From: Armatimonadota bacterium
GTDB lineage: Bacteria > Sysuimicrobiota > Sysuimicrobiia > Sysuimicrobiales > Humicultoraceae
Direction of reading: 5' to 3'
Length of the DNA: 64,000 bases
NCBI GenBank assembly: GCA_031459855.1
Contig: JAVKHP010000001.1
Coordinates: 1,470,059 to 1,534,058, forward strand
Within the stretch, counting starts at the first letter, position 1, and each line of letters begins with the position of its first letter. Below the pieces are notes generated by a model. That model was not told the origin of the DNA. It saw nothing but the letters and a program-made list of their open reading frames with translations, and made no database searches. A program made the position numbers and the translations under genes. Positions 42,088-52,494 of this stretch are shown here, in pieces.

Positions 42088-42265
42088 CCCCACGCCGGCG
42101 ATGAAGACATCTCCCGAGGCGATCGCCGACGGCTCGCTACTTGCTGGCCGCTGCCAGGCCCACGCCGGCCAGGACGAGACCCAGCCTCGGCGATGGCCGC
42201 GCAGATGCGCTTGCGGGCCCCACGCCGGCCAGGAAGAGACCTCCCCCGAGGCGAAGACGGTGCGG
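42088..42265. repeat. three imperfect ~45-bp direct repeats upstream of the molybdoenzyme gene
   Basis: CCCACGCCGGC followed by variants of CAGGAAGAGACCTCCCCCGAGG starts near 42088, 42159 and 42218. The spacing is about 71 and 59 bases. They occupy most of the 41930-42278 gap between the divergent signalling operon and the fdhF-like gene; the last copy runs up to its ribosome-binding site. Confidence 0.6.
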
Positions 42266-42278
42266 GGAGGAAACCGCG

Positions 42279-44654
42279 ATGCGGTGGACCCCGGCGCTGT
42301 GGGCGAGCCGCCGGCCGTTCGGGCTCGGCGAGCAGCGCCCCAACAACTACCTGGAGATCTGGCGGGCGCTGTGGGAGAACCGCGGCGCGCTGCCCTACGC
42401 GTGGCGCATCCTCACGCAGGGCGTCTGCGACGGGTGCGCGCTCGGCACCAGCGGGCTGCGCGACTGGACCCTGCCCGGCGTGCACCTGTGCAACGTCCGC
42501 CTGCGGCTGCTGCGGCTGAACACCGCCCCGGCCCTCGACATCCGGCTGCTGGCCGACGTGGGCCGCCTGCGCGGGCGTCCCGCCCATGCGCTGCGCGCGC
42601 TGGGCCGGCTCCCCTACCCGATGATCCGGCGCCGTGGCGAGGCCGGCTTCCGACGCGTCGCCTGGGACGAGGCCCTCGACCTGGTCGCGGCCCGCATCCG
42701 CACGGCCGGACCCGAGCGGCTGGGCGTCTACCTCACCAGCCGGGGGGTGCCCAACGAGACCTACTACGCGGCGCAGAAGGCGGTGCGCGCCATGGGCACC
42801 AACGCCATCGACAACGCCGCCCGCGTCTGCCACGCGCCCTCCACGTTCGGGCTCAAGCAGGCCCTGGGCGTGGCGGCGTCCACCTGCTCGTACACCGACT
42901 GGATCGGCACCGACCTGCTGGTGTTCATCGGGTCCAACGTGGCCAACAACCAGCCGGTGGCCATGAAGTACCTGCACTACGCGCGCAAGGCCGGCACGCG
43001 GGTCGTGTGCGTCAACCCCTACCGCGAGCCCGGCATGGCGCGCTACTGGGTCCCGTCGGTGCTCGAGAGCGCGCTGTTCGGCACGACGATCACCGACCGC
43101 TTCTTCCTGGTGAACGTGGGCGGCGACGTCGCCTTCCTCAACGGCGCCCTCAAGTGGATGCTCGCCCGCGGCTGGGTCGACCGCGCGTTCGTCGACGGGC
43201 ACACCACCGGCTTCCCCGAGCTGGCAGCAGCCCTGGCCGCGCAGCCGTGGGAGGCGCTCGAGCGCGCCAGCGGCGCCTCGCGCGAGGAGATGCTGGCGTT
43301 CGCCGAGCTGGTGGGCACCGCCCGCACCGCCGTGTTCGTCTGGTCGATGGGCGTCACGCAGCACGAACACGGCGAGGACAACGTGCGGGCCATCGTGAAC
43401 CTGGCCCTCGCCCGCGGCTTCGTGGGACGGCCGCACTGCGGGCTGATGCCCATCCGCGGCCACTCCGGCGTGCAGGGGGGCGCCGAGATGGGCGCCTACG
43501 CCACGGTCTTCCCCGGCGGGCTGCCCATCACGCCCGAGCACGCCCGGCGGTTCGCCGCGCTGTGGGGCTTCCCGGTGCCGGCGACGCCCGGGCTGACCGC
43601 GCCCCAGATGATCGACGCCGCTGCCGAGGGCCGCCTCGAGGTGCTCGTGTCGGTGGGCGGGAACTTCCTCGAGGTGCTGCCCGACCCGCGCTACGTGCGG
43701 GCGGCGCTGGAGCGCGTGCCGGTGCGGGTGCACCTGGACATCGTGCTCTCCACGCAGATGCTGCTCGAGCCCGGCGACGTGGTCGTCCTGCTGCCGGCGG
43801 CGACCCGCTACGAGACGCCGGGCGGGGTGACCCAGACCACGACCGAGCGGCGGGTGATCTTCAGCCCCGAGGTCCCGGGGCCCCGCATCGGCGAGGCGCG
43901 GCCCGAGTGGGAGGTGTTCATGGACCTCGCGCGGCGCGTGCGCCCCGAGTGGGCCGATCGCCTGACCTTCCGCGACACCGCGGCGATCCGCGAGGAGATC
44001 GCCCGGGCCGTGCCCTTCTACGACGGCATCCAGCGGCTGCGCCGCGCCGGCGACCAGTTCCAGTACGGCGGGCCGCACCTGTGCGCCGGCTGGACCTTTC
44101 CCACGGCCGACGGCCGGGCGCACTTCGCCGTGGTGACGCCCCCGGTGGTGGAGGTGCCCGCCGGGCAGTTCCTGCTGGCCACCCGCCGGGGCAAGCAGTT
44201 CAACAGCATCGTGCACGAGCGCACCGACGCCCTCACCGGGGCCGGACGCGACGCCGTCTTCATGCACCCCACCGACGCCGCGCGCCTGGGCCTGGCCGAG
44301 GGCGCGCCGGTGGTCGTACGCAGCGCCGCCGGCGAACTGCGCGGCCGCGTGCGGCTGGCGCCGGTGAAACCCGGCAACCTCGAGGTGCACTGGCCCGAGG
44401 GCAACGTGCTGCTCGACCGGCGGCGACGGTCGCGCGAAGCGGGCATCCCCGACTACAACGCGGTGGTCACGGTGACGCCCGCCGCGGTGGCGCAGCCGGC
44501 CGCCGCGGCGGCGGGGGTTGCGTCGGTTGCCACGAACCCGCACGGCGACCCCGTGGTGCAGCGGGTGCAGCCGGTCACCGCGCCGGTGGACGCCGCACCG
44601 GTTGATGCCGCACCGGTGGATGTCGCGCCGGGCGCCAGGGCGCCCCAGGCGTAG
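42279..44654 (+). CDS. FdhF/YdeP-type molybdopterin oxidoreductase, Cys form
   Basis: A 791-residue molybdoenzyme with GGGGAGG 8 bases before ATG 42279. CDGC (50-53) plus Cys71 form a partial iron-sulfur type pattern. AIDNAARVCHAPSTFGL places Cys184 where E. coli FdhF has selenocysteine, so a Cys ligand to molybdenum is expected. FIGSNVANNQPV, MGVTQHEHGEDNV and the C-terminal MGD-binding domain (RRGKQFNSIVHERTDALTG) are typical of the YdeP branch. The C-terminal 30 residues are an Ala/Pro/Val/Asp repeat. FdhD follows 16 bases downstream. Formate is the family substrate; for the YdeP branch it is unproven. Confidence 0.9.
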   Translation: MRWTPALWASRRPFGLGEQRPNNYLEIWRALWENRGALPYAWRILTQGVCDGCALGTSGLRDWTLPGVHLCNVRLRLLRLNTAPALDIRLLADVGRLRGRPAHALRALGRLPYPMIRRRGEAGFRRVAWDEALDLVAARIRTAGPERLGVYLTSRGVPNETYYAAQKAVRAMGTNAIDNAARVCHAPSTFGLKQALGVAASTCSYTDWIGTDLLVFIGSNVANNQPVAMKYLHYARKAGTRVVCVNPYREPGMARYWVPSVLESALFGTTITDRFFLVNVGGDVAFLNGALKWMLARGWVDRAFVDGHTTGFPELAAALAAQPWEALERASGASREEMLAFAELVGTARTAVFVWSMGVTQHEHGEDNVRAIVNLALARGFVGRPHCGLMPIRGHSGVQGGAEMGAYATVFPGGLPITPEHARRFAALWGFPVPATPGLTAPQMIDAAAEGRLEVLVSVGGNFLEVLPDPRYVRAALERVPVRVHLDIVLSTQMLLEPGDVVVLLPAATRYETPGGVTQTTTERRVIFSPEVPGPRIGEARPEWEVFMDLARRVRPEWADRLTFRDTAAIREEIARAVPFYDGIQRLRRAGDQFQYGGPHLCAGWTFPTADGRAHFAVVTPPVVEVPAGQFLLATRRGKQFNSIVHERTDALTGAGRDAVFMHPTDAARLGLAEGAPVVVRSAAGELRGRVRLAPVKPGNLEVHWPEGNVLLDRRRRSREAGIPDYNAVVTVTPAAVAQPAAAAAGVASVATNPHGDPVVQRVQPVTAPVDAAPVDAAPVDVAPGARAPQA

Positions 44655-47244: not shown

Positions 47245-47490
47245 TCACAGGGCTTCAGCCAGCAGGCGCGCTGCCTCGCCGGGCTGAGGAAACCGGCCGG
47301 CGCTGGCCTTGTTGAAGATCGTGCGCCTGCCGGCGAAGATGGCGAACCGCCCACCCGACGACGGGACGATCACCACCGACGCGATGCGGTCCGCGTGCTC
47401 GCCGAGCAGCTCCTCCGCCACACGGGCGGCGTGTCCTTCGTACCCTCATTCCGCGCAGTACTCGATGCGCACCGTAATGCGCTCGGGCAT
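47245..47490 (-). CDS. SelW/Rdx-family selenoprotein with in-frame UGA (CxxU)
   Basis: An 81-residue thioredoxin-fold redox protein. ATG 47490 follows GGAGGTG at a good distance. The reading frame gives MPERITVRIEYCAE, then TGA (47446-47448) as codon 15, then GYEGHAARVAEELLGEH and so on to a true TGA stop at 47245. Cys12 and the UGA form CxxU, the exact redox motif of the SelW/SelT/SelH (Rdx) family. Downstream conserved features SSGGRFAIF, FNK and GRFPQPGEAARLL also fit. Because of the UGA, standard gene calling splits it. Selenocysteine insertion would need SelA, SelB, SelC and SelD encoded elsewhere. Confidence 0.88.
47416..47434 (-). promoter_or_regulatory. candidate bacterial SECIS hairpin after the UGA
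   Basis: On the minus strand ACACG pairs with CGTGT (47434-47430 and 47424-47420) around loop CCGCC, its 5' arm starting 12 bases after the UGA codon. Alternatively CGCC pairs with GGCG around an 8-base loop beginning with G. Position fits bacterial SECIS elements, but the stem is short and unproven. Confidence 0.35.
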
Positions 47491-47885
47491 CTGTCACCTC
47501 CGGGTGCGCTCCCGCAAGCCCACGTGGGAGAACGAAATTCTTCTACAATAGTCTTCTACAAAGTTGGCGGGAGATCCCGGTCACCCTGCTGCAGGCGGCT
47601 GCCACTCTAGAATAGCCCGTTCGGGTGCTCGCACGTGCGACGGACTGGCGGTGCCGCGGCTGCAGGCCCGTGACCCTGGAGCTGTGTGGTTGGCTGATTG
47701 TGCGGGACGACGAGCTGAGGATACAGCCACCGCGGTCCCAAACCTACGGTCAGCTGTCCATGGATCGCGCGCGGAGGTGAGCCGGCGATACCGCGGCGGC
47801 GGGCGCCCCGTCCCGTAGGTGGCCGTTGGGTGGCGGTTGGGTGGCCGTTGGGCGGCCGTTGTAGATGGGCCCGTTGCGTTTCCCG
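47491..47885. repeat. gene-free region with two short repeat families
   Basis: Upstream of the SelW-like gene lie two copies of TCTTCTACAA (47539-47548 and 47552-47561, period 13) in a locally AT-rich stretch, possibly part of its promoter or operator. At 47818-47861 there are four tandem copies of an 11-base unit (GGTGGCCGTTG with single changes), just downstream of the stop of the next gene. No coding sequence is supported between them. Confidence 0.6.
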
Positions 47886-52026: not shown

Positions 52027-52494
52027 TCACCGGAACAACTCCAGCACCCGCCGCTCGAGCTGGTCCTTCAGGCGCCGCCGGAATGCCTCCACGTCGTCGA
52101 TGTACATGGCGTGGATGTAGAGGACACGGCGGTCGGGCGTGACGTCCAGGCTGAGGGTCCCCGGGGTCAGGGTGATGAGGTTGGCGAACAACGTGATCTC
52201 GGCGTCAGTCTGTACGTCGAGGGGGATCGCCAGGATGCCGGGCCGCATGTGGTGCGTGCGCGTTACGACGTCGTAAGCCACGCGCAGGTTCGCCAGCAGC
52301 AGCTCCCACAGGTAGAACAACGCGAAGCCCAGCGCCAGGCGCAGCCGGCGTCCGTAGCGCCCGTCGCCGCCGCCCGCCAGCCGCAGCGCCGCGAACCCCA
52401 GCAGGAACCCGACCGCGAAGTTGGCGAACGTGAAGCGCCCCGTCACCGCCATCCAGACCAGGGCCAGCAGCACGTTGGCGAGCAGGGGCGTCAC
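52027..52494 (-). CDS. mnhE: Na+/H+ antiporter subunit MnhE/MrpE
   Basis: A 155-residue membrane protein starting at GTG 52494, overlapping the mnhD stop (GTGA). [57 protein letters not shown] and the C-terminal [10 protein letters not shown] match MrpE. It supports assembly or activity of the hetero-oligomeric antiporter. Confidence 0.94.

Follow-up and report, generated by a model that had tools for sequence, protein, structure and literature searches.

Bacterial selenoproteins of the SelW type were recognized about two decades ago. Those with a CxxU active site rank among the most frequent selenoproteins of marine metagenomes and are known from many bacteria (PMC1794560, PMC2398784). The phylum CSP1-3 has been renamed Sysuimicrobiota, and the paper describing it mentions no selenium or selenoprotein (PMC11604079). 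We examined a small gene from a member of this phylum within a stretch of 64,000 nucleotides (the window), and we conclude that it almost certainly encodes a SelW-like selenoprotein of the Rdx family, in which UGA codon 15 would be decoded as selenocysteine (Sec) by means of a hairpin, SelB and Sec-tRNA-Sec.

Gene, product and predicted fold

The features of the locus are listed below, each with the evidence on which it is based.

47245..47490, minus strand: selW-like gene (Rdx family), 81 amino acids, predicted Sec at position 15 (ORF reading, Pfam/TIGR profiles, AlphaFold model)
47495..47501, minus strand: Shine-Dalgarno-like GGAGGTG, 4 nt ahead of the ATG (read from the sequence)
47490, minus strand: start codon ATG (read from the sequence)
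47446..47448, minus strand: in-frame TGA (UGA), codon 15, predicted to be read as Sec, second position of CAEU (of the phylum's 19 Rdx genes, 18 have TGA here and one has TGC)
47415..47429, minus strand: predicted SECIS hairpin CCGCC-CGUGU-GGCGG, 5-bp stem and 5-nt loop (conservation, RNAalifold)
47247..47245, minus strand: the gene's own stop, TGA (read from the sequence)

The originally predicted start, a minus-strand ATG at 47490 with GGAGGTG upstream, is borne out (GGAGGTG at 47501..47495). From this ATG to the stop at 47247..47245 the frame contains only one internal TGA, at codon 15, and reading through it yields a product of 81 residues, MPERITVRIEYCAEUGYEGHAARVAEELLGEHADRIASVVIVPSSGGRFAIFAGRRTIFNKASAGRFPQPGEAARLLAEAL. 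Gene callers that take TGA as a stop would cut the gene after 14 codons. The claim that a full Rdx-family protein appears once this codon is read through agrees with the profile matches to PF10262 and TIGR02174, both of which span the TGA. The Pfam Rdx profile (PF10262) matches residues 6-76 over profile positions 1-71 of 74 (E 8.2e-18, 64.8 bits against a cut-off of 22.6), and the product also scores above the cut-off of TIGR02174 CXXU_selWTH (48.8 against 34.2 bits). The closest NCBIfam model by score is NF041051 SelTWH_Campy, at 72.5 bits, which is less than the 88 bits set for membership of that equivalog.

The active-site motif, C12-A-E-U15, follows the first strand (strand 5-12 in the AlphaFold model). 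The UGA had been assigned to the correct position of the CxxC/CxxU motif; the wording needs amendment, for what it replaces is the second Cys of CxxC and not the second residue, giving the motif CAEU. The AlphaFold model, computed from an 11-sequence alignment, has a pLDDT of 93.9. When it was compared with known structures using Foldseek, TM-scores of about 0.9 were obtained to the bacterial SelW/Rdx crystal structures 2obk, 2fa8 and 2p0g, and of 0.68 (query-normalised) to mouse SelW 2npb, with weaker matches also to thioredoxins. As modelled, the product has the thioredoxin-like SelW fold, and knowledge of the family suggests that it is probably a thiol/selenol oxidoreductase with a CAEU active site.

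The neighbors of the gene encode a molybdopterin oxidoreductase, FdhD, a MobA-like protein, a prepilin-like protein and a carbohydrate phosphorylase, and no shared neighborhood was obvious in the ORF layouts of six relatives. Elsewhere in the window, a tRNA-Arg(acg) called by ARAGORN at 52298..52392 on the minus strand is probably a false positive; it has no Rfam support and overlaps long ORFs on the same strand.

Conservation of the TGA codon

An Rdx gene is present in 19 of the 43 Sysuimicrobiota genomes surveyed. Alignment with SelW/Rdx homologs, which the original prediction had named as a check, shows the motif TGA at the same codon in 18 of these genes and TGC (Cys) in one. This sole Cys form in the phylum (L009, G018:C3:19827-20042) has the motif CSEC; the genome that carries it retains selA, selB, selD and tRNA-Sec. 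When the window gene is compared with its homolog L020, dN/dS is about 0.37 upstream of the TGA and about 0.32 downstream. Purifying selection thus acts on both flanks, and the latter value indicates that the downstream part is translated. In nine of the ten family relatives searched an Rdx gene was not found, and the gene is therefore dispensable in the lineage.

Selenocysteine machinery

The prediction had been made dependent on selA, selB, selD and tRNA-Sec, the absence of which would speak against it, and all four were found in the same genome (3.19 Mb, 4 contigs, 97.7% complete). The tRNA-Sec gene, at C1:2651865-2651956, scores 66 bits to RF01852 and is called tRNA-SeC with anticodon TCA (UCA) by ARAGORN; the Rfam model matches other tRNAs weakly in all control genomes, and the match counted is the strongest one, confirmed by ARAGORN. 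Both selB (348.9 bits, over cut-off) and selA (549.3 bits) lie within 6 kb of it. The selD gene is located elsewhere (L050, G000:C1:1149867-1150790, 388.5 bits) and has its own in-frame TGA, which makes it a selenoprotein gene too (CAGU); the same holds for nearly all relatives that possess selD. Between tRNA-Sec and selB there are two adjacent ORFs on the opposite strand (L033 7844-10030, G000:C1), which by eye resemble two divergent versions of a single proline-rich protein.

Three selenoprotein families were tested in this genome (SelD, SelW and FdhA), and in-frame TGA genes occur only in SelD and SelW. The formate dehydrogenase-like genes of this genome, including the one at 42141-44654 of the window, contain no in-frame TGA. 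A formate dehydrogenase alpha subunit (TIGR01591) with one in-frame TGA occurs in several relatives, for example G001, G002, G008, G018, G021 and G027.

The predicted SECIS hairpin

A putative SECIS hairpin lies immediately 3' of the UGA, a feature that the original prediction did not include. It begins 16 nt after the UGA and its apical loop begins 21 nt after it. The bacterial SECIS (bSECIS) model quoted in PMC13188914 specifies a loop of 3-9 nt, a stem of 4-16 bp, a G in the first two loop positions, a distance of 16-37 nt from the UGA, and an MFE at or below -7.5. The window hairpin conforms to this model, with a loop of 5 (CGUGU), a stem of 5, a spacing of 21 and an MFE of -7.5 for the bare 15-mer; the surrounding 25-nt stretch gives an MFE of -9.8 as a variant with a 6-bp stem and a 4-nt loop, and the bare hairpins of some relatives are weaker (-4.8, -5.4). 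Taken alone the window hairpin does not exceed chance expectation: when the peptide was resampled with synonymous codons, a model-conforming hairpin formed in 51% of cases, and the 51-nt fold of the window sequence has a z of +1.3. We rejected single-sequence folding as SECIS evidence because in GC-rich coding DNA it does not outperform chance, and the evidence for the SECIS is therefore the conservation of the hairpin.

Across 19 distinct sequences, a set that includes Campylobacter (L044) and an Oligoflexia bacterium (L045), all 95 of 95 pair cells are standard pairs (100% paired). Both sides have changed in three of the five pairs, with pair 4 varying as C-G, U-G and U-A and with two pairs changed on both sides in Campylobacter. 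The covariation score was reached by none of 500 shuffles. Two lineages contribute most of the covariation, which therefore counts as few events. Controls with the partners slid by 1-3 columns scored far lower, and RNAalifold recovers the same hairpin unaided.

The codons themselves are constrained in the phylum, as seen in an alignment of 18 of its sequences, which comprise 17 of the TGA genes of the surveyed genomes and L037, with L024 left out because its register is broken. Codons +6, +8 and +9 (GCC CGT GTG) are invariant including the third base, and codons +7 and +10 vary only as Ala/Val or Ala/Thr codons. The Arg codon of the hairpin is the rare CGT in 18 of 18, a codon that accounts for 5.7% of Arg codons in five neighboring genes. 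The more distant homolog L024 has a similar 5-bp hairpin with the loop CGUGA, four bases nearer to the UGA. The Cys homolog L009 lacks the SECIS hairpin.

Relatives with two UGA codons

Both motif positions are TGA (UAEU) in three Rdx genes: L025 (G017), L026 (G029) and L037 (QHUL01000094.1). These genes have one conserved hairpin after the second TGA, the same as in the CxxU genes, and their first UGA is 30 nt from the hairpin loop, still inside the range of the bSECIS model. L037 and L025 have diverged (dS 0.74, dN 0.08 downstream) with both TGAs kept, which amounts to strong purifying selection and makes an assembly error unlikely. A two-TGA Rdx gene was not found among 28 Rdx matches with one TGA in the three other phyla searched. 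Two reviews give SelW-like proteins as CxxU only and list UxxU for other families; a literature search found nothing on tandem UGA in SelW, and SelW and UxxU are both missing from the deep-Sep paper. We consider it likely that this one lineage turned a CxxU SelW into a UxxU form with a diselenide-type site, in which a single hairpin would assist the decoding of two UGA codons three apart. The UxxU form is possibly an unlisted SelW subtype. C-xx-U, U-xx-U and C-xx-C forms, some with the hairpin and some lacking it, make the Rdx family here a natural series.

Proposed decoding of UGA codon 15 and alternative explanations

The gene, the machinery, the conserved UGA, the conserved hairpin and the predicted fold are shown here, and from these we infer that Sec is actually inserted at codon 15 and that the product has a redox role. 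Translation would start at the ATG behind GGAGGTG. The hairpin downstream of UGA codon 15 would recruit SelB with Sec-tRNA-Sec, the latter charged by SelA with selenophosphate supplied by SelD, and the ribosome would insert Sec at this codon without stopping, while the final UGA, having no recoding role, would lead to termination. The expected product is thioredoxin-like and 81 residues long. Its first strand ends at the CxxU active site, and it most likely works in the cytosol as a thiol/selenol oxidoreductase.

Since a single base change from the Cys form gives the window's sequence, two other origins of the TGA have to be weighed: a nonsense mutation that disrupted a Cys-type Rdx gene, or a sequencing error from TGC or TGT to TGA. 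We find this exceedingly improbable, because the TGA and the downstream frame are conserved: 17 further genomes of the phylum carry TGA at this codon, which disposes of the sequencing error that had been named as a possible refutation, purifying selection acts on the sequence beyond the TGA, and the hairpin is conserved. A random nonsense mutation at exactly this codon had been judged a notable coincidence, and with the same TGA in nearly all Rdx genes of the phylum chance is excluded. Scarcely any probability attaches either to the suggestion that UGA stands for Trp or Gly genome-wide and hence not for Sec. Any code that assigns a residue to TGA would indeed leave the frame open, but other genes are without in-frame TGA and this reading is refuted by them: selA and selB of this genome have no in-frame stops and long ORFs of the window have no internal TGA. 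Moreover, the selW-like ORF itself needs TGA as its stop, the only non-TGA homolog in the phylum has Cys at that codon, and the genome encodes tRNA-Sec(UCA).

The selenoprotein reading may be refined further. One study describes recoding and RF2 termination as competing at bacterial UGA/SECIS sites, with recoding of 30-40% that needs enough selenium (PMC4513850). Recoding of codon 15 might accordingly be partial or conditional, with low selenium leading to termination or to Cys and expression tied to selenium supply, a possibility that we put forward tentatively and hold to be rather unlikely.

Comparison with known systems

The window gene resembles the SelW-like selenoproteins of Geobacter, Symbiobacterium, Desulfotomaculum and marine metagenomes (PMC1794560, PMC2398784) in its PF10262 domain, in the Sec position within CxxU and in the accompanying Sec machinery. 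It differs from them in coming from another phylum, Sysuimicrobiota, nearly all members of which share the hairpin loop CGUGU, setting them apart from other bacterial SelW-like selenoproteins. The similarity to the Campylobacter SelT/SelW/SelH (seleno)protein family (NF041051) extends to the Campylobacter gene L044, in which the corresponding codon is likewise TGA and the hairpin is compensated; however, the window product falls below the equivalog cut-off and is about 37% identical to L044. The bacterial Rdx crystal structures 2obk, 2fa8, 2p0g, 2oka, 2ojl and 3dex have the same fold (TM about 0.9) and are sequence relatives (E 3e-6 to 5e-8), with which the window product is 26-30% identical. 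We take these proteins to carry Cys and not Sec. Like the SECIS of Escherichia coli fdhF, the hairpin sits within the coding sequence directly downstream of the UGA and has a small apical loop with a G near its 5' side. It is shorter than the fdhF element (5 bp) and has another loop sequence. A securely supported selenoprotein is thereby added in a phylum whose description is silent on selenium. The window gene is an ordinary bacterial SelW-type selenoprotein, one more member of a known family.
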